The notes beneath the pieces were generated by a model, which saw only the letters and a list, made by a program, of their open reading frames with translations, searched no databases and was not told the DNA's origin. Shown here in pieces: positions 55,894 to 64,000 of a stretch of 64,000 bases of DNA. This stretch comes from Hungatella sp. (lineage in GTDB: Bacteria; Bacillota; Clostridia; Lachnospirales; Lachnospiraceae), in contig JAAWBS010000068.1 of assembly GCA_022792815.1 (NCBI GenBank), forward strand, positions 1 to 64,000, read 5' to 3'. The translations under genes were made by a program, and so were the position numbers. The number at the start of each line of letters is the position of its first letter. The stretch's first letter is position 1.

Positions 55894-56403
55894 GAAATGC
55901 CGATAGACACAGGTGTTAGTGTCTGCTCCATAACGAATAGCTGATTAATTTAATAAAAATGGTTGCAATCCTTCGGGATGTGCTATATACTTAACAAGTC
56001 GGTACATTTGCTGCCGGCTTGATTTTGTAATCTTCGCCGTGGATTCTCCACGACAGGGTTCTTAAAATCTTTGTATCAGGCTGTGATATTCAGCAGAGAA
56101 ATCAGGAGATCTATAAAATGTAGTTGTGGGATGCCGGAAGAAAATGAGAAAGACCTATAGGAAAAGCATGGATCGGTAAGAATCAGAAGCCATTCCATAT
56201 CAAAAAGCAATATTATAATAGGAAGTAACAGCTTCCATTTCAGGCAGAATGCGTTGTCAGATGGGGTAAAACCCATGGGGCAGCGCTTTTTGTCTGCCTG
56301 GGGGGCTTCAAGCACAATCTGAAGGGGAAAGATCTTGACGTAAAAAGGCGAGTTTCTCCGGTTACAAAAGTTTTTTTTGAGAAATTACATAAAAAGTGCC
56401 AAA
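55894..56403. other. Long intergenic interval before the matrix operon
   Basis: About 510 bases with no convincing gene. It holds a weak terminator (55996-56028), a small ATGGG/CCCAT hairpin and a GGCAG/CTGCC hairpin near 56258-56300, and an inverted copy of the GTAACCGG word (56358-56365, CCGGTTAC) that can pair with the sites at 56404-56423. A run of eight Ts lies near 56371. Confidence 0.5.
55996..56028 (+). terminator. Probable terminator after the adaptor/MacB-like genes
   Basis: AAGTCGG / CCGGCTT stem (7 bp, one G-U pair) with an 11-base loop, followed by GATTTTGT. Weak but well placed about 100 bases after the last gene of the transport module. Confidence 0.45.
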
Positions 56404-56436
56404 TGTAACCGAGATGTAACCGGTGAGATTTATAAT
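56404..56436 (+). promoter_or_regulatory. Candidate response-regulator-controlled promoter of the matrix operon
   Basis: TGTAAC (56404-56409), five bases and TGTAAC (56415-56420) form a direct repeat with an 11-bp period, the PhoB/OmpR-type box. The -10 TATAAT (56431-56436) follows directly, with no normal -35. The box sits where the -35 would be, as at PhoB-activated promoters. Confidence 0.5.
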
Positions 56437-56485
56437 AGACACAACTGAATAGGAGGTGGTGTCTATCAAAGTCAGGTGTAAGCGA

Positions 56486-57127
56486 ATGGATAGGAGAGCA
56501 TATGGAATCCTGGCTATCCGTCGCAGTCAAAGCAATCAGGTATCCGGCTCAATTTACCATCACCTTCATGAAGAGAAACTCTCGTTTAACGGATTTATGG
56601 AAATGACAGAATGGCTGCAGTTGCTTTCTGAGCTTCAGGGATATCCGATGACCGAAATAGAGGAGGGGGAGGGGACAGATACCACCTCACTTTCACGGTT
56701 GGAAGAACGGGTAAGCCAGATTGAAGGTCAGCCGGGGTTTGCGGTACAAACACATCTATACCGTCTGCAGATGTACCATTGTTTCCGGAATACATACCAA
56801 GGAAGTTTGGAAGAACAGGAAAGCGGAAAAAGGTGGCACTTCGAAAGCTTTCTGGAACTGGTCCGGATCCTGGAGAATCAATTGGGAATCCTTCCGGAAA
56901 AGACATTGTTCCCGGAAGCGCCGACAGGTACCTATATGTACCGCAGAGACAATCAGAAATTTGCGATCACCGTGTTGTTCCACAGGAACAATACATGGCA
57001 GGGAACCATCCGTTGGGTCAATGGCAAGAAGACGATCAATTTTAAAACATGTCTGGAACTGTTATTGATCTTAAGTGAAATTTGCGCAGACAGCAGGGAT
57101 GAGAGGATGATATGTACTGGTGATTAG
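56486..57127 (+). CDS. Three-repeat protein of unknown function, first gene of the matrix operon
   Basis: About 213 residues made of three copies of a roughly 45-residue unit. Each has a beta-hairpin-like half and a helix of the form F..hhEhh.hh: ILAIRRSQSNQVSGSIYHHL ... FNGFMEMTEWLQLLSEL (56507-56640), LYRLQMYHCFRNTYQGSLEE ... FESFLELVRILENQL, and FAITVLFHRNNTWQGTIRWV ... FKTCLELLLILSEIC. No signal peptide or membrane segment, so it is cytoplasmic. I recall similar short proteins next to SipW/TasA-like genes in related bacteria, with no known function; a regulator or chaperone is possible. ATG 56486 is used, though its ribosome site is weak. A GTG at 56456 overlaps a good AGGAGG and would add ten residues. 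Confidence 0.7.
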   Translation: MDRRAYGILAIRRSQSNQVSGSIYHHLHEEKLSFNGFMEMTEWLQLLSELQGYPMTEIEEGEGTDTTSLSRLEERVSQIEGQPGFAVQTHLYRLQMYHCFRNTYQGSLEEQESGKRWHFESFLELVRILENQLGILPEKTLFPEAPTGTYMYRRDNQKFAITVLFHRNNTWQGTIRWVNGKKTINFKTCLELLLILSEICADSRDERMICTGD

Positions 57128-57146
57128 CAGATGTTTATGTTCGCCA

Positions 57147-57178
57147 GAACTGTCAAAAAGTAAACTTTTTGACAGTTC
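57147..57178 (+). terminator. Perfect 15-bp hairpin between the repeat protein and the giant surface protein
   Basis: GAACTGTCAAAAAGT and ACTTTTTGACAGTTC are exactly complementary with only AA between. The CTTTTT is inside the stem and no T-run follows it. It could attenuate or process the transcript ahead of the large gene, 58 bases before its start. Confidence 0.6.
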
Positions 57179-57235
57179 GTCTATGGCAGACAGGTTACAT
57201 GGAAATAGAAAGAAAGTATGGCTGAGGTGAAAAGG

Positions 57236-60200
57236 ATGAGTAGGAAGAGAAGAATAAGGACAAAACTCAAAAGATGTTTCGCGATGTTCCTGTCACTCTG
57301 TATCATGTTCTCCATGTTCCAGGGGGTGGCCTGGGCGGACATGAAGCCGGAGGAAGAGGGACAGCTTCGGGACGTGATGATTGAGCTGGACGGGGAGAGA
57401 CTTCTTTCGGAGGCGGGGAAAGCCATCCAGGAACAGAACGTCTTTGATTTTGAAGAGTACGGCATGTCGTTCCTGCTTCAGAACGAAGAGGGAAAACTGG
57501 TGATCTCGGAGGATTACCGGAAGGTCCTGAGTTCCGATACCGGAACGGTCTATGTCATTGACGAGATCCCCTACATGGATGAAGCCGCTGCCTGTGAAGT
57601 CCTGGGGGATGCCATGCTGACAGTTTTGGTGAAAGTGGACGACAAGGGAGCCGGGCTTGGAACGGCCAGCAATGCAAGGCGGGCTACGGAAAGCAACGCA
57701 AGGAAGGGAACTCCCGGCAATGCTCTCTATGAAAATGGATATGAGCTGACCGGAGATGAGCAGTTCATCTTCCTGTTAGTGAACCCGACCAAGGATGAGA
57801 TCAACTTACAGATCAGTATCAACGGCCAGAGGACAGGAGTCATCAGTGTAGGCCGTGAGAGCGCTTTGCCGGCAGGAGAAGTAGTAAAAGAGGCCAAGAA
57901 GGCGGAAGAGACGAAAGCCGAGGGACAGAAACCGGCGGAGGCAAAACCGGACGGAACAGTGGAGACGCCGGCATTCCAGGCACCATCGGAGACGGCACCT
58001 GTAGAGAGTCTGCCGGAGATGAGCCTTCCTGAGGAAGGATCGATAGAGGAGACAGAATCCATCGAGGTTCCCACGCTTCCGGCTATCGATATCGAGAACA
58101 CAGAGAGCACTACGGAAGAGACGGGCGGGACAGAATCTGTGACAGAGACAAGAACAGAGGAGACGGCAGAGGCGGAAACTGAAGAAAGTATCAATCAGCC
58201 GGAAACTGGTACAGCGGAGAGTGAGGGAACGGAGGAAAAAGAAGAGTCAGATATTGAGACTGAGGCTACGGAGGATGAAAGCAGTCAGGAAGTGATTCCT
58301 GAGGAGAGAGAGTCCTACGAGGCGGAAGAAGAATCCAACTCTGATACAGCCGAGGGCAATGCAGATTCAGGTCAGGATCCTGATGCAGAGGCTCTGGTAT
58401 CGGATGACGCGTCAGAGGTGCCGGAACAAAACATAGAAGAAAAGAATCCGCTGTCTGTATCCAGCCATAAAACGTACCGTGTAGGAACGTCCATGGGCCC
58501 CATCGAAGGATTTGTGGATGAGGAAGACCGGGACGGAGAATGGGATAAAGAGATAGGGAATGATACAGAAGAGGAAAACAGAGAGAAGATTCACTTCAGC
58601 GACGAGGTAATCGTCGTAAGCGAAGGCACGGATGGAGTGGAACTGGAGACCTACGTACTTCCCACAGTATTGATGGAGATTGGCAGAGAGCCTGTGAACC
58701 TGATCGGGGATGAGGCGGAGCCTGCGGTGTATACGAGGAAGAAGAACGCAGAGATGCCCTCTGCTGGGATTATGATGTTGAATGCCAGAAGTTTAGGGGC
58801 GAAAGAAGCCTCCTTGGCTGAGCTGAATCTGATGAAGGTAAATCTATATAATTATGATGAAGAGACATTGAATAACACAATAAGAGCAGATGTGCCTGAT
58901 TCTGATAAATCAAAATTGTTTCTTCTAAACCTGGTAGATAAGCCGCTAAGCGAAGTGGGGCATCAGAATCGCGGCCATCATTATATGGATTCGAATGGAG
59001 AGGAGGATTATGCTGCTCACCAGGGGATTATGGGAGATACCTATGATGAAGCAGGAAAAATAGCTTTAAAAGATCCATACCTTGCAGGAGGCCTAAATAG
59101 TGTTTGCAATCTGTTTCCTGAGACTGCATCGGAAGTGGTAGATGGAGTAACGGCTTATATAGATGTTCCGGTTGGCGAAGGCGTATTTCAACTGGTGGAT
59201 GGCTATTATAGATTGAATGCATTTGAAACCACTACCTATAGCAATAAAGACAAGATTACTGGTGAATCGGGAGTTATTAAGGAAGAAGTAAATACAGACA
59301 ATGGGACTATCGGTGGACCGACACCCTTAGGCTTGTCTGGTAATGATGACGATGGCTATCAGTTAGAATACAACACAAAGAATATAGGCGGCAATATAGG
59401 ATTCTGGCCATTTAATCTTTTGGAGGGAAAGAAAAAAGAAACTTTTGGAATGAAAATTTCTTTTGATTTCCGCATGTATGAGAATGGTGTGGGTTCAAAT
59501 GGCAAACCAGCACAATTCACTTTTGCCGGAGATGATGATGTATGGGTTTATCTGAAGGATCGAGATGGAAACGCAGTTTCAAAGCTAGCGTTAGACCTTG
59601 GCGGGATCCATGGGGCAACGGCAGGAACGATCAATTTTCAGACTGGAGTTGTGACACATTATAAGGTATTGAGTCACTTTGGCAATAGCGATAATGATAG
59701 CCGAATCAGAAAAAAAGTTCAATGGTACCTTTACAATGATTGTGAAGACGAATCCAAGTATGATAAAGTTTTGGGATTAGAACGTCCATCGGCGAAGAAT
59801 GGCAAGAACTATACGTTAGACTTTTATTACATGGAACGTGGCGGTAAGATGTCAAGCTGTTATATCGATTTTAATTTGAGTATCATTCCTAAACAGGAAA
59901 TACGAATTCAGAAAAATATCGAGGGAACAGCAGACAAAAAAGAATTCCAGTTTCAGGTAATAAGCAGTGACGATCCGGATGCTTTAGTAAGTTATAGAAA
60001 TTCTAATGGAGCAGATGGGAACGGTATCATAAAATCTGATATTCTCACCTTAAACGGCGCCGGACGTGGAAGTATACAGATCAACAAGAATCAAAATAAA
60101 TATTTCTATGTCGAAGAACTAAATGCCGGAGAAAATGTAGAATGGAGTACATCAGGTATATACGACGAATCAGAGTTAACTGCTCACAGAAGGCCGGGGC

Positions 60201-62677
60201 AATCTTACATCTATGAAAGGACATCTGACAAAGATGAGAAAGAAGGATACTTAATCCAATGTACCAATGTATATGATGGGTTCTCACCAGAGATTAAGAA
60301 AGCGGCTTGGCGTGATGGTGATAATGATGTTTATGATATCGCATTAGAGGTGTCTGGTGGGGCGAACCAAAGTATATCAGGCGGATTGAGCGATGCCCAT
60401 GTGTTCTTTGCAGTGGATACCTCTGAGAAAATGGGCAGTCAGAAAGAGACACTCACATCTGCTTTGGAGAACACCGTTGGAAATCTTAGAGGGACAAATT
60501 CTTATGTGGCGGTTAGTGGGAGTTTAGGTTACGATCCCTGGACTATAAATAAGGTCTCTGGGGAAATTTGGATGGATGATATAGATGATGTAATAAAAAT
60601 TATTAACGACCAGCATACATTTTGGGGAGAAACCGGAGCAATAAGCGGGGCTATGAGTCATATAAAGTCTCAATATATCAATAAAGATAAAACACATTTG
60701 GTATTAATAATAGGTGGTAGGCCGGAGGATTCTGGAACTGAATTTATTAAATATGCTGCGAATGACTTAAAAAACGCAGGAGTAAAGATACACATAATAG
60801 AGATCCATGACCAGTCAGGTACAGATACTTGGGTATCACCCGGAGATGTAGACACACACGATAGAATCGTGATATCGGAATTGGAGAGTGCTCTTGCAAA
60901 CATTATAGGTTCCGGTAGTTCCAGCTCCCAGGAAATGCAGAACCCAATAGTTTATGATACCTTAAGTCCCAAAGTGGCTCCGGAAAATAGTCCTTTAGAA
61001 ATTTGGGCTGTTTCCAACCAGGAAATTGCAGCTACCGGAGTAAAGCCTGAACACAAGACCAATAAATTGAAACCGGAAGACGGATCAAATGGATTAATTA
61101 TCTATTCTAACGCTTTAGAACCAATTGCCTGGTATAATCCTACGACAACAACCATAGATGGCATAGAACCTCGCACCATCAAATGGAAGGTTGCCGATAG
61201 CCTTGGTGATAACGAAAGCAGAACCCTCATATTCCGAGTAAAAGTAACGAATGAATCGGCAACAACTGTAACTTCCGATTTAGGAACCGGGACCCATGCA
61301 GGGGAAGAGGGGTACTATTCTAACGGAGCTGCTTACCTGACATACAGAGATAACGGCATAAAGAATTTTCCGCGTCCTGTAGTACAGCAGCAGCGTAAGA
61401 CTTTAAAAGCAGCTTTAACGGTTGAGAAAGAGATTGCAAACCCAGACAGTGTCCCGGTTGGAGAGAAAGCTACAAGATTTGAAATTAATCTGAAGTCCAC
61501 AAATGTCTATTCCGATGTGGAGAATAAAAATAGTTTCCAACCGAGTATGGAATTAACTGCCGGAGAACACAGTGAACAGTATGAGGTATATCTGGACTCA
61601 GAACAAGGCGGAACCATCACGGTAGAAGAGTTACTGGCTCAGGATTCACATTTCCAGCTGGATTCCATCGCCGCAAAAGATGCTCAGGGAAATGATATTT
61701 CCATAACAGGCAATAATCACTCCTTTGCGATCACTCCCGGAAGCCACATCACAGTGACCGTGACAAACCGCTATGTCAATCACAATCCGATCAAGCTTCA
61801 GAAGTTTGTGAACAGAAAGTCGGAAGATAAAACAGAGTTCACTGTCAACCTTACAGAGTGCACAATTGCAGGGAGCGGTGAAAAACGTAAAGTAACGATA
61901 ACCGGTTCACCAGTCACCACGAAAATTTCAGCGGCAGACGGTGAAAGAGTAACCAGTTTGAAAGCTGCTGACACTACCAAGTATTACATCGTGGAAGAGC
62001 AGATCACTGACGGCCAGCCGTACATCCTGGACTCTATCCAAGCCATTGATGAGGCAGATGGAAACAATGAGATCGGCCAGATCATAGATGACAAGTATAT
62101 CATCACCGTATCACCGACCAGCAGTCCATTCATCAAGGTATCTAACAAAACCTACGGCAGAGTCAGAGTAGTGAAACAAGTTACTGGTGAGAAGGCTGAT
62201 GAAGCCCCAGCCAAAGAGTTCATGATTCATGTGACGAATACCGGTAACACCGGAACCTATGTAGACACCACAGCCATCATACGGGCAGGTGAGGGCAATG
62301 GCAGCGGCTGGATCATGATTGACAAAGATACCGCTTTACAGGTTACAGAGACCGAACTGAAAGAATTCAAGTTGGATTCTATCAGATTTTCCGGAACCGA
62401 TCTTGCCACCGGCCAAAAGATCAATTGGTCGGGCAGAGAGAACCTTGTAAGGCCCGGAGAAGAAGTAACCATCACCGTCACCAATGCCTATGTCCCGCAG
62501 AATTTCTTCGACGGAGACTCAAGCAAGATGAATGACTTCAATCCAAATAAGGAGCCGGTTAAACCAATCATCCCGAAAGCAGCAGATGTGGCCATGGCGG
62601 TAGAGAGGAGATTCCTCACCACAGAGGAAGGCGTATATGTGTTAGAGCCCAGGGAGCTTCCCGAAAGGCTATTATAA
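57236..62677 (+). CDS. Giant secreted protein: acidic linker, fibro-slime-like module, VWA domain, Cna-B-like repeats
   Basis: About 1,813 residues. A basic N-terminus and signal peptide (RCFAMFLSLCIMFSMFQGVA) come first. Residues about 218-405 are a Glu/Thr/Ser/Pro-rich linker. Near 763, FAGDDDVWVYLKDRDGN with LALDLGGIHGATAGTINFQT matches the fibro-slime/PA14-like pattern. Near 1055-1240 a von Willebrand A domain has an intact MIDAS start (DTSEKMGS). From about 1390 to 1750 come three or four Cna-B-type repeats whose ends read ITVTVTNRYV and VTITVTNAYV. The C-terminus (ending PRELPERLL) has no LPxTG motif or anchor helix, so attachment must be by other means. ATG 57236 follows GAGGTG; ATG 57218 lacks a good site. 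It probably acts as an adhesive or matrix scaffold outside the cell. Confidence 0.85.
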   Translation: MSRKRRIRTKLKRCFAMFLSLCIMFSMFQGVAWADMKPEEEGQLRDVMIELDGERLLSEAGKAIQEQNVFDFEEYGMSFLLQNEEGKLVISEDYRKVLSSDTGTVYVIDEIPYMDEAAACEVLGDAMLTVLVKVDDKGAGLGTASNARRATESNARKGTPGNALYENGYELTGDEQFIFLLVNPTKDEINLQISINGQRTGVISVGRESALPAGEVVKEAKKAEETKAEGQKPAEAKPDGTVETPAFQAPSETAPVESLPEMSLPEEGSIEETESIEVPTLPAIDIENTESTTEETGGTESVTETRTEETAEAETEESINQPETGTAESEGTEEKEESDIETEATEDESSQEVIPEERESYEAEEESNSDTAEGNADSGQDPDAEALVSDDASEVPEQNIEEKNPLSVSSHKTYRVGTSMGPIEGFVDEEDRDGEWDKEIGNDTEEENREKIHFSDEVIVVSEGTDGVELETYVLPTVLMEIGREPVNLIGDEAEPAVYTRKKNAEMPSAGIMMLNARSLGAKEASLAELNLMKVNLYNYDEETLNNTIRADVPDSDKSKLFLLNLVDKPLSEVGHQNRGHHYMDSNGEEDYAAHQGIMGDTYDEAGKIALKDPYLAGGLNSVCNLFPETASEVVDGVTAYIDVPVGEGVFQLVDGYYRLNAFETTTYSNKDKITGESGVIKEEVNTDNGTIGGPTPLGLSGNDDDGYQLEYNTKNIGGNIGFWPFNLLEGKKKETFGMKISFDFRMYENGVGSNGKPAQFTFAGDDDVWVYLKDRDGNAVSKLALDLGGIHGATAGTINFQTGVVTHYKVLSHFGNSDNDSRIRKKVQWYLYNDCEDESKYDKVLGLERPSAKNGKNYTLDFYYMERGGKMSSCYIDFNLSIIPKQEIRIQKNIEGTADKKEFQFQVISSDDPDALVSYRNSNGADGNGIIKSDILTLNGAGRGSIQINKNQNKYFYVEELNAGENVEWSTSGIYDESELTAHRRPGQSYIYERTSDKDEKEGYLIQCTNVYDGFSPEIKKAAWRDGDNDVYDIALEVSGGANQSISGGLSDAHVFFAVDTSEKMGSQKETLTSALENTVGNLRGTNSYVAVSGSLGYDPWTINKVSGEIWMDDIDDVIKIINDQHTFWGETGAISGAMSHIKSQYINKDKTHLVLIIGGRPEDSGTEFIKYAANDLKNAGVKIHIIEIHDQSGTDTWVSPGDVDTHDRIVISELESALANIIGSGSSSSQEMQNPIVYDTLSPKVAPENSPLEIWAVSNQEIAATGVKPEHKTNKLKPEDGSNGLIIYSNALEPIAWYNPTTTTIDGIEPRTIKWKVADSLGDNESRTLIFRVKVTNESATTVTSDLGTGTHAGEEGYYSNGAAYLTYRDNGIKNFPRPVVQQQRKTLKAALTVEKEIANPDSVPVGEKATRFEINLKSTNVYSDVENKNSFQPSMELTAGEHSEQYEVYLDSEQGGTITVEELLAQDSHFQLDSIAAKDAQGNDISITGNNHSFAITPGSHITVTVTNRYVNHNPIKLQKFVNRKSEDKTEFTVNLTECTIAGSGEKRKVTITGSPVTTKISAADGERVTSLKAADTTKYYIVEEQITDGQPYILDSIQAIDEADGNNEIGQIIDDKYIITVSPTSSPFIKVSNKTYGRVRVVKQVTGEKADEAPAKEFMIHVTNTGNTGTYVDTTAIIRAGEGNGSGWIMIDKDTALQVTETELKEFKLDSIRFSGTDLATGQKINWSGRENLVRPGEEVTITVTNAYVPQNFFDGDSSKMNDFNPNKEPVKPIIPKAADVAMAVERRFLTTEEGVYVLEPRELPERLL

Positions 62678-62701
62678 ACAAGCAGGCAAAGGAGAATTAT
62701 G

Positions 62702-63433
62702 ATGAAAGGAAAAAGAATGCAGTCATTGATAAAAAAGAATAAAAAACTCATCATAGCGGCATCCCTTCTGGCCTCGCTTGTAGTGGGAGAGACCTACGCA
62801 TGGGTAGCCTCTTCCCTGACAGTAGATAATGAGCTGATCGGCCATACCACTCAGGTGGAGGTTGTGGAGGATAAGTTCTATAAGGGGGAGAATGAGAGCT
62901 GGGTTACCAAAGAGGTGTACTTTGAGAACAGGGGGAGTTCGGCGGTATTCTTGAGAATGAGCTATCAGGAGTACTGGGAATATAAGGATCAGCTGCTTCC
63001 CAACTCGATTCCCGGGGCAAGCGGCGCCACGGGAGCGGATGTGGCGACTAAGGTCTTTAATGCCAAAGTGTTTCAGCCTTCTGACGAGAAAAACACTTTG
63101 TGGCTGGACGGAGGGGACGGGTGGTACTACTACACCAAAGTCCTCCCGGCCGGAGGGAAGACAGACGAGGTATTGAAACAGGTAAAATTCCCGACGGAAT
63201 ATGCCGGAGAATATGCGAAATATAAGGATGCGGAATATCATCTGTATTTCAAGGTGGAAGCGGTCCAGGCCAGCACCAGCCCGAAGACATTGAATCGTGA
63301 TGATGTAAATGCCAAAGCGACAGCAAAAGTATTCGGAGATGGAACTGTCCCGTGGGCTCAAGTCGATATCTCAGACTCTACGGTACAGTGGGAATTTAAG
63401 ACGCCATATCAGAATCAGGGAAGGGAGGGGTAA
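62702..63433 (+). CDS. SipW-dependent TasA/BsaA-like extracellular matrix protein
   Basis: 243 residues. The N-terminal signal (KLIIAASLLASLVVGETYAW, then VASS) is of the SipW-dependent kind, with the YAW motif after a short hydrophobic core, as in TasA/CalY and the clostridial BsaA proteins. The mature part is beta-rich: VEVVEDKFYKGENESWVTKE, VYFENRGSSAVFLRMSYQEY, GGDGWYYYTKVLPAGGKTDE, the usual arrangement for these fibre-forming proteins. GGAG lies seven bases before the ATG at 62702; the ATG at 62699 is a little close. It follows the giant protein by 24 bases. The SipW-type peptidase is not in the window but may be just downstream. Confidence 0.85.
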   Translation: MKGKRMQSLIKKNKKLIIAASLLASLVVGETYAWVASSLTVDNELIGHTTQVEVVEDKFYKGENESWVTKEVYFENRGSSAVFLRMSYQEYWEYKDQLLPNSIPGASGATGADVATKVFNAKVFQPSDEKNTLWLDGGDGWYYYTKVLPAGGKTDEVLKQVKFPTEYAGEYAKYKDAEYHLYFKVEAVQASTSPKTLNRDDVNAKATAKVFGDGTVPWAQVDISDSTVQWEFKTPYQNQGREG

Positions 63434-63436
63434 ACG

Positions 63437-64000
63437 ATGAAAAAGTTCAAAAATCCAAAGTTCATTCTTTTCGGAACCTGTTTTACCCTTCTTCTGGCCA
63501 TTTCCGGGATATGGGCATACTTCAGCGCAACAGGGATGATCGAGAATGTGTTCCGCACCGGCAATTCCCAGCTGAGTATCATAGAGGTTTTCGACCCTGC
63601 CGATCAGTGGCTGCCCGGGGAACAAAAGCAGAAAGAGGTCCGATTTAAAAACAGCGGAAGTACAAAAATGTTGTTGAGATTCCGGGTGGAACAGGCGCTC
63701 TATCAGCCGAATGGCACGGAGGTGACACCGATTCCGAAAGACATGTTTACAATCGGATGGGATCAGTCCTATCTGGGTATGAATTTCACAGAGGGTCCGG
63801 GTACAACGATAGTAGATGGGGAAGACAGAAACTATACCTATTACTACTATAATAAGATTCTCGATCGAAATGACGAGACCCTGCCTGTCATAAATTATGT
63901 AGAGTTCGCAGACTGGATTTCCAATGGAAACGGAAAGCCCGCAGAGGATTATCAGAACTATAAAGCCAGTGTAAAGATTATCGGAGAGATGGTTCAGCTC
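63437..64000 (+). CDS. Second SipW-dependent BsaA/TasA-like protein, cut by the window end
   Basis: 188 codons are visible and the frame is still open at the last base. The signal region FILFGTCFTLLLAISGIWAY, then FSATG, is a second SipW-dependent form. The mature part has SIIEVFDPADQWLPGEQKQK, EVRFKNSGSTKMLLRFRVEQ and, near the edge, a KILDRNDETLPVINYVEFA block that parallels the KVLPAGGKTDEVLKQVKF of its neighbour. GGGAGGGG precedes the ATG, which lies three bases after the previous stop. The pair are related but not close copies. It probably co-assembles with, or seeds, fibres of the 62702 protein. Confidence 0.85.
   Translation, partial: MKKFKNPKFILFGTCFTLLLAISGIWAYFSATGMIENVFRTGNSQLSIIEVFDPADQWLPGEQKQKEVRFKNSGSTKMLLRFRVEQALYQPNGTEVTPIPKDMFTIGWDQSYLGMNFTEGPGTTIVDGEDRNYTYYYYNKILDRNDETLPVINYVEFADWISNGNGKPAEDYQNYKASVKIIGEMVQL

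Follow-up and report, generated by a model that had tools for sequence, protein, structure and literature searches.

We analysed a stretch of 64,000 nucleotides (hereafter the window) from a 3.8-Mb draft genome of Hungatella sp. (NCBI GenBank assembly GCA_022792815.1, contig JAAWBS010000068.1, here designated C14, positions 1 to 64000), which ends within a nine-gene operon. In order, this operon encodes a small protein of a family that we call WQG, a giant secreted protein, four short BsaA-type proteins (BsaA-type 1 to 4), a SipW-type peptidase, a long BsaA-type protein with an LPQTG motif and a class B sortase. We propose, with a probability of roughly 0.55, that the operon builds a matrix fibre which is attached to the cell wall and displays the giant as an adhesin, and that the WQG protein regulates the neighbouring surface protein. 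The contig extends 5.3 kb further than the window, to position 69329, and carries the remainder of the operon; the open reading frame (ORF) of BsaA-type 2 runs past the window edge to a stop at C14:64102. The operon is composed of the following elements (aa, amino acids).

56456..57127, + strand: small protein of the WQG family, 223 aa with three repeat units, encoded by the operon's first gene; GTG start, with an in-frame ATG at 56486; no hydrophobic N-terminus flagged
57147..57178, no strand: inverted repeat in the spacer between the WQG and giant genes, with two perfectly matching 15-bp arms around a 2-nt loop; no perfect short-loop inverted repeat of the window is longer
57218..62677, + strand: giant secreted multidomain protein, 1819 aa, without C-terminal sorting signal (C-terminus scan); hydrophobic N-terminus
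59504..59650, + strand: fibro-slime-like segment of the giant (aa 763-811); TIGR02148, 42.9 bits, below the cut-off of 45
60401..60811, + strand: von Willebrand A (VWA) segment of the giant (aa 1062-1198); PF00092, 27.1 bits on the segment
62162..62491, + strand: DUF5979 segment of the giant (aa 1649-1758); 37.8 bits on the segment, cut-off 25
62663..62674, + strand: final four codons of the giant (E-R-L-L)
62699..63433, + strand: BsaA-type SipW-dependent protein 1, 244 aa; TIGR04090, 60.2 bits
63437..64000 (to C14:64102), + strand: BsaA-type SipW-dependent protein 2, 221 aa; TIGR04090, 65.9 bits
C14:64211-65113, beyond the window: BsaA-type 3, 300 aa; TIGR04090
C14:65201-65986, beyond the window: BsaA-type 4, 261 aa; TIGR04090
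C14:66060-66596, beyond the window: SipW-type peptidase, 178 aa; TIGR02228, 104.3 bits
C14:66678-68360, beyond the window: long BsaA-type protein whose C-terminus carries LPQTG, 560 aa when counted from the ATG; TIGR04090 and TIGR01167
C14:68380-69234, beyond the window: class B sortase, 284 aa; TIGR03064, 196.5 bits

A previous model-made reading of the window (the sequence-only reading) had placed a repeat protein, a giant and two TasA-like genes in a single operon. This proposal was borne out: the four ORFs that fall in the window all lie on the + strand with intergenic spacers of 90, 21 and 3 nt, and the operon continues beyond the edge. The extension downstream, advised there in search of a SipW peptidase, revealed one that scored 104.3 bits on TIGR02228 (cut-off 51.85). 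A terminator-like hairpin at 55995-56021, between an upstream 198-aa gene and the WQG gene, is in line with an operon starting at the WQG gene, at a strength not above shuffle expectation. We considered the inverted repeat at 57147-57178 as a common regulatory site and rejected it, the repeat being missing at the other WQG-giant junctions of our first set of loci (set 1) and present in a single copy in the genome.

All five BsaA-type proteins of the operon reached the TIGR04090 cut-off of 60 bits, with 60.2, 65.9, 187, 144.4 and 161.3 bits, BsaA-type 2 having been scored as a protein cut at the window edge. The two proteins that the sequence-only reading had described as TasA-like with SipW-type signals both belong to the BsaA family; of these two, only the second also passed the SipW-type signal model TIGR04088. 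The peptidase of the operon and that of a paralogous operon described below (109.2 bits on TIGR02228) remained under the cut-off of 190 of the Bacillus SipW equivalog NF046067, with 93.3 and 90.1 bits. The long BsaA-type subunit matched TIGR01167 with 23.4 bits (cut-off 15.9) and carries an LPQTG motif, and the sortase matched the class B model TIGR03064 with 196.5 bits (cut-off 153.75). TIGR03064 was the best model for all five operon sortases compared and was passed by two of them, since G022 reached 185.6 bits while G003, G024 and the paralogue of the same genome remained below with 153.0, 141.1 and 135.6 bits (L and G numbers are labels for the loci and genomes of the compared set).

The same genome contains a second operon with an identical nine-gene order, on contig C43. 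It encodes a 156-aa WQG protein, a 1667-aa giant with a fibro-slime match and three Cna_B domains, four BsaA-type proteins, a SipW-type peptidase, a 560-aa BsaA-type protein with an IPQTG motif and a sortase; 367 bases of contig precede this WQG gene. To extend the comparison, TIGR04090 matches above cut-off in 61 genomes (our own and 60 relatives) were grouped into 10 loci, all of which were annotated. A giant (1458-2692 aa), four BsaA-type proteins, a SipW-type peptidase and a long BsaA-type protein (555-668 aa) followed one another in every locus, with an extra BsaA-type gene in L189. The proposal of the sequence-only reading would have been undermined if these genes were only rarely adjacent in related genomes; instead the order recurred in 10/10 loci. 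The long BsaA-type protein always carried an LPXTG-like motif (SPQTG in L189) and a hydrophobic/basic end, and the C-terminus test detected no sorting signal on the giant in any of the ten loci. The WQG gene lay immediately upstream of the giant in 7/10 loci and was itself immediately preceded in three of them (L076, L187 and L189) by a gene for a regulator of the SARP type. Among the three loci without a WQG gene at this place, two begin near a contig end; in L184 two ORFs lie upstream, one SARP-like and one on the opposite strand. A class B sortase directly followed the long BsaA-type gene in five loci, the same five whose giants match the fibro-slime profile, a coincidence to be read with the fact that the fibro-slime and sortase profiles were both built from four of these loci.

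We then compared the anchoring of giants of at least 900 aa whose genes start at most 800 nt after a WQG gene. The C-terminus was scored for a hydrophobic stretch with a basic tail, and giants with identical last 80 residues were removed, leaving 58. A sorting signal was present on 0/19 giants with BsaA-type genes directly behind and on 30/39 giants without them (Fisher p 7e-9, a value that ignores shared descent, as the loci are not phylogenetically independent). Seven of the 19 BsaA-followed giants also belong to the 10 TIGR04090 loci. Of the nine signal-less giants without BsaA-type genes, seven (L058, L061, L066, L068, L071, L077 and L090) reach the edge of the fetched piece or of the contig; the other two, L131 and L163, do not. 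The giant thus seems, from its C-terminal sequence, to carry its own anchor, or none where a BsaA operon follows. The sequence-only reading had suggested a tethering of the giant that does not use sortase. Against this, most giants without neighbouring BsaA-type genes carry a sorting signal, and the window's own operon contains, at 2.7-5.2 kb beyond the window, genes for a class B sortase and an LPQTG-bearing subunit of the BsaA type. Since the anchor would lie on another subunit of the operon, a sortase-free tethering appears unlikely. In L142, L144, L166 and L176 (Gemmiger, Fournierella, Bittarella) the sorting-like C-terminus was found on one or two small secreted proteins encoded downstream and not on the giant. 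A class B sortase comes after the standalone WQG-linked giants of L053 and L056. The standalone WQG-linked giant of L160 (L160:10560-17966) has an APQTG-like sorting signal as well as a thioester domain and eight stretches of the FctA type.

The giant of the window, predicted by the sequence-only reading to be a secreted protein of about 1,800 residues without sortase signal, fits this description with its 1819 aa and hydrophobic N-terminus; a hydrophobic/basic sorting signal was looked for at its C-terminus and not found. Its proposed domains fared unequally. VWA was recovered on the isolated segment (PF00092, 27.1 bits, cut-off 23.8), no VWA model being above cut-off in the scan of the whole protein. 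The fibro-slime match stopped just short of the TIGR02148 cut-off (42.9 bits against 45, E 4.9e-11; 45.8 bits for the giant of the paralogous operon). Cna_B (PF05738) was not matched in either whole-protein or segment scans, whereas the paralogous giant has three copies. The protein is poorly conserved: any match was found in 9/60 other genomes, and a full-length one in 1/60 (45% identity). Its C-terminal end is of a recurrent type, the residues R-[LF]-[LVMI] terminating 8/10 BsaA-linked giants, if the second ORF of L186 is counted. Alignment of four syntenic giants revealed further common residues in the earlier part of the tail. From these sequences we infer a possible docking function for the tail. 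The L186 giant (L186:306-6820, G017:C30) is split into two overlapping ORFs of 1458 and 728 aa, the second of which ends in DDRLV.

The first gene of the operon belongs to a family described by no Pfam or NCBIfam model. When 40 members were searched with E up to 0.1, no Pfam model matched more than 2/40 and no NCBIfam model more than 1/40, the best stray match having an E of 0.0039. The core WQGxxxW is invariant across 40 aligned members. The sequence-only reading of the window protein as a cytoplasmic three-repeat protein was confirmed: a hidden Markov model of the family's C-terminal unit gave three matches, of which the first is weak (0.7 bits) and the others reach 18.1 and 48.1 bits, the AlphaFold2 model contained three strand-strand-strand-helix units, and no signal peptide was present. 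N- and C-units of the family aligned with an HHalign probability of 94.7. We detected 82 merged matches in 19 of the 61 genomes, with up to 10 per genome, and 302 confirmed matches came from a scan across 84,980 species, each represented by one genome. The best 80 matches were kept, corresponding to 79 loci (set 2), a sample biased to the canonical two-unit type. According to the record titles, these loci come from Lachnospiraceae and other Clostridia including Gemmiger, Fournierella, Pygmaiobacter, Bittarella and Christensenella. Loci L138, L113 and L126 belong to cultured commensals, strains of Blautia parvula or Diplocloster. A second long paralogue occurs at L048:8201-8911 (G000:C26) and L052:8455-9153 (G022:C106), where the proteins are 46% and 43% identical to the WQG protein of the window; these copies have no giant, and their neighbours are on the opposite strand.

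Two kinds of neighbours recur at the loci of set 2. A SARP/BTAD-type gene was the upstream neighbour of WQG in 55/79 loci (51 on the same strand), as compared with 25/730 control genes of the same loci, and a profile-based repeat of the count again gave 55. Seven of these SARP-type neighbours were scanned: BTAD was passed by all seven (36.4-56.5 bits, cut-off 22.1) and the winged helix-turn-helix model Trans_reg_C by three, and GGDEF was below cut-off in each (best 19.3 bits, cut-off 23.8). On the other side, the next gene encoded a protein of at least 900 aa on the same strand in 32/69 WQG loci, as compared with 15/545 control genes. This count leaves out 10 of the 79 loci with less than 3 kb downstream and is slightly low, since a wrong-strand ORF was called in L123 in place of a 1228-aa giant. 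SARP, WQG and giant genes were consecutive in 22 loci of set 2. In set 1 a giant lay downstream of 33/52 WQG ORFs and upstream of 5/52. SipW together with at least two BsaA matches was found in only 15/79 WQG loci, indicating that WQG is not specific to matrix operons. At the level of whole genomes, a BTAD gene lay within 3 kb of 24/82 WQG genes; BTAD was present in 17/19 WQG-bearing genomes and also in 8 genomes without WQG. In L050 (L050:5496-6843, G000:C16) the SARP-type gene upstream of WQG forms two overlapping ORFs of 329 and 142 aa and may therefore be interrupted in that genome. We did not retain the 605-aa single ORF L154:8657-10474 as a true SARP-WQG fusion: its linker resembles translated intergenic sequence, possibly following the loss of a stop codon.

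These data suggest the following scheme. The four short BsaA-type proteins would be exported, trimmed by the operon's SipW-type peptidase and assembled into a fibre, by analogy with BsaA and TasA. The long fifth BsaA-type protein, which has an LPQTG-like signal, would be linked to peptidoglycan by the class B sortase encoded with it and is thus the likely base of the fibre. The signal-less giant would join the fibre non-covalently or as its tip, perhaps through the conserved C-terminal tail. The WQG protein would stay in the cytoplasm and, given its genetic linkages, would most likely regulate the surface protein of the adjacent gene, in many relatives with the SARP/BTAD protein encoded upstream; a role as co-regulator of surface-protein operons is our guess. 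More tentatively, and with the odds somewhat against it, SARP-WQG pairs may represent a regulatory cassette, so far undescribed, by which gut Clostridia control the choice of giant surface protein, and giants may exist in two exchangeable formats, some anchoring themselves by a sorting signal and others, without one, being carried by a SipW-dependent BsaA fibre in which sortase acts on the long subunit.

Several observations weigh against this scheme. As to regulation, 58/82 WQG genes have no BTAD gene within 3 kb (contig ends uncorrected), and only 3/10 TIGR04090 operons have a SARP gene directly before WQG. A BTAD gene was searched for on the window's contig and none was found, so that its WQG protein would act alone or with a SARP protein encoded elsewhere; the same genome contains four BTAD genes on other contigs, two of them adjoining WQG genes. 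Eight of the 69 WQG loci (L124, L125, L128, L139, L140, L141, L147 and L153) precede a holB-like gene of 329-338 aa, and both of the two such genes scanned passed TIGR00678 holB (187.9 and 194.1 bits, cut-off 180.6); WQG is consequently not tied to surface proteins alone, and the position before holB is perhaps the ancestral chromosomal location of the SARP-WQG pair. Several further WQG loci precede opposite-strand or unrelated genes. Fold searches with the WQG protein returned no match reaching significance. As to anchoring, in five of the ten operons the long BsaA-type gene is not immediately followed by a class B sortase. The loci in general are phylogenetically dependent, and the two locus sets overlap. 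The hydrophobic/basic test alone also flags SipW proteins and is thus not specific without the motif. Finally, the available part of a study on C. perfringens reports that BsaA polymers and pellicles were both unaffected when the neighbouring srtB was deleted (PMC7395162), so that the fibre can be independent of a sortase encoded next to bsaA.

This last result speaks for a matrix that is independent of sortase, in which BsaA would polymerise by itself as in C. perfringens, the giant would be soluble or loosely bound, and the LPQTG subunit and sortase would serve otherwise. Recombinant C. perfringens BsaA polymerises alone (PMC7395162, as far as the accessible text goes), and B. cereus TasA, CalY and CapP are described as sortase-independent in the accessible part of PMC13082335. 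We nevertheless hold such a matrix to be unlikely for the present operons, because the long subunit bears an LPXTG-like signal in 10/10 of them, a signal that the available text of PMC7395162 does not predict in C. perfringens BsaA, and because the presence of BsaA-type genes coincides with the absence of the signal from the giant (0/19 against 30/39). Far less probable still is that the operon specifies a classical pilus assembled by sortase, in which the giant would be the tip pilin. The Cna_B domains of the paralogous giant and the presence of a sortase and an LPXTG protein in one operon would suit such a pilus; however, the sortase is of class B, the subunits are of the BsaA type, and neither the four short subunits nor the giant carry a sorting signal.

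The role of the WQG protein can also be read in other ways. As a cytoplasmic secretion helper or chaperone, it would act on giants before their export and not as a regulator. The giant ORF follows WQG directly in 33/52 (set 1) and 32/69 (set 2) cases, WQG has no signal peptide, and the fold search produced weak look-alikes of the DnaK substrate domain, at a non-significant E of about 0.5 to 1.5. Because the link to SARP is stronger than that to giants in set 2 (55/79 against 32/69) and several WQG loci have no giant, we consider this role doubtful. The adjacency of WQG and giant might instead be passive, SARP-WQG cassettes and surface genes sharing variable, often exchanged regions. The occurrence of up to 10 WQG paralogues per genome, the variability of the giants and the restriction of full-length homologues of the window giant to 1/60 other genomes are compatible with this possibility, which we judge improbable given the skewed order (giant downstream of 33/52 WQG ORFs and upstream of 5/52), kept across genera. 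A regulatory WQG protein encoded at the head of a wall-attached fibre operon remains our preferred interpretation.

A BsaA-type subunit that itself bears a sorting signal and is encoded next to a sortase allows a direct test of the way in which Gram-positive cells retain fibres of the TasA/BsaA type, a point that to our knowledge is not settled. That the sorting signal switches between giant and fibre gives a simple rule by which gene order predicts the mode of anchoring. More surprising is the WQG family, with the SARP gene next to it: widespread in Clostridia and linked to regulators and giants, it offers a handle on surface-protein choice.

Among known systems, the B. subtilis operon has the order tapA-sipW-tasA and likewise combines a SipW peptidase with small fibre proteins bearing SipW signals. 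We know of no sortase, LPXTG subunit or giant in the tasA operons of B. subtilis and B. cereus. The window operon also differs from Bacillus TasA in scoring only 15.7 and 15.9 bits on the TasA equivalog NF046066 (cut-off 450). In B. cereus, the sipW-tasA-capP-calY operon shares with ours a SipW peptidase of its own and small fibre proteins that carry SipW signals (PMC13082335, available text). The WQG-linked giants scanned share their domain repertoire (VWA, Cna_B, SpaA, FctA, thioester) with Gram-positive LPXTG adhesins, from which the BsaA-linked giants differ by having no sorting signal. The SARP-type neighbours of WQG resemble SARP/BTAD regulators by their BTAD (7/7) and winged helix-turn-helix matches (Trans_reg_C above cut-off in 3/7), and differ by ending in a GGDEF-like segment (below family cut-off) and by adjoining WQG; SARP/BTAD literature among the matches listed, as far as its accessible text goes, concerned Streptomyces antibiotic clusters or other subjects. 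PUR-domain proteins, such as the transcriptional modulator Bpur of Borrelia, were compared with WQG without a significant fold match. Literature searches on BsaA with sortase, fibro-slime with TasA/SipW, SipW with sortase and Lachnospiraceae, and BTAD with Clostridia/Lachnospiraceae gave no description of the combination among the matches listed, a coverage that includes few subscription papers and preprints. C. difficile has a single sortase, SrtB (PMC4155245, accessible part), for which two functional substrates have been shown (PMC5569036, accessible part). In C. perfringens, again from the accessible part of the report, BsaA needs SipW and forms polymers, and the sipW-bsaABCRSD operon resembles ours in combining a SipW-type peptidase with BsaA-family proteins and in adjoining a putative srtB, whose deletion was without effect there, no LPXTG-like motif being predicted in BsaA (PMC7395162). 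Compared with this system, the operon described here has no two-component pair among its ORFs and unites four short BsaA-type proteins with a long LPQTG one, a giant adhesin and a WQG gene.

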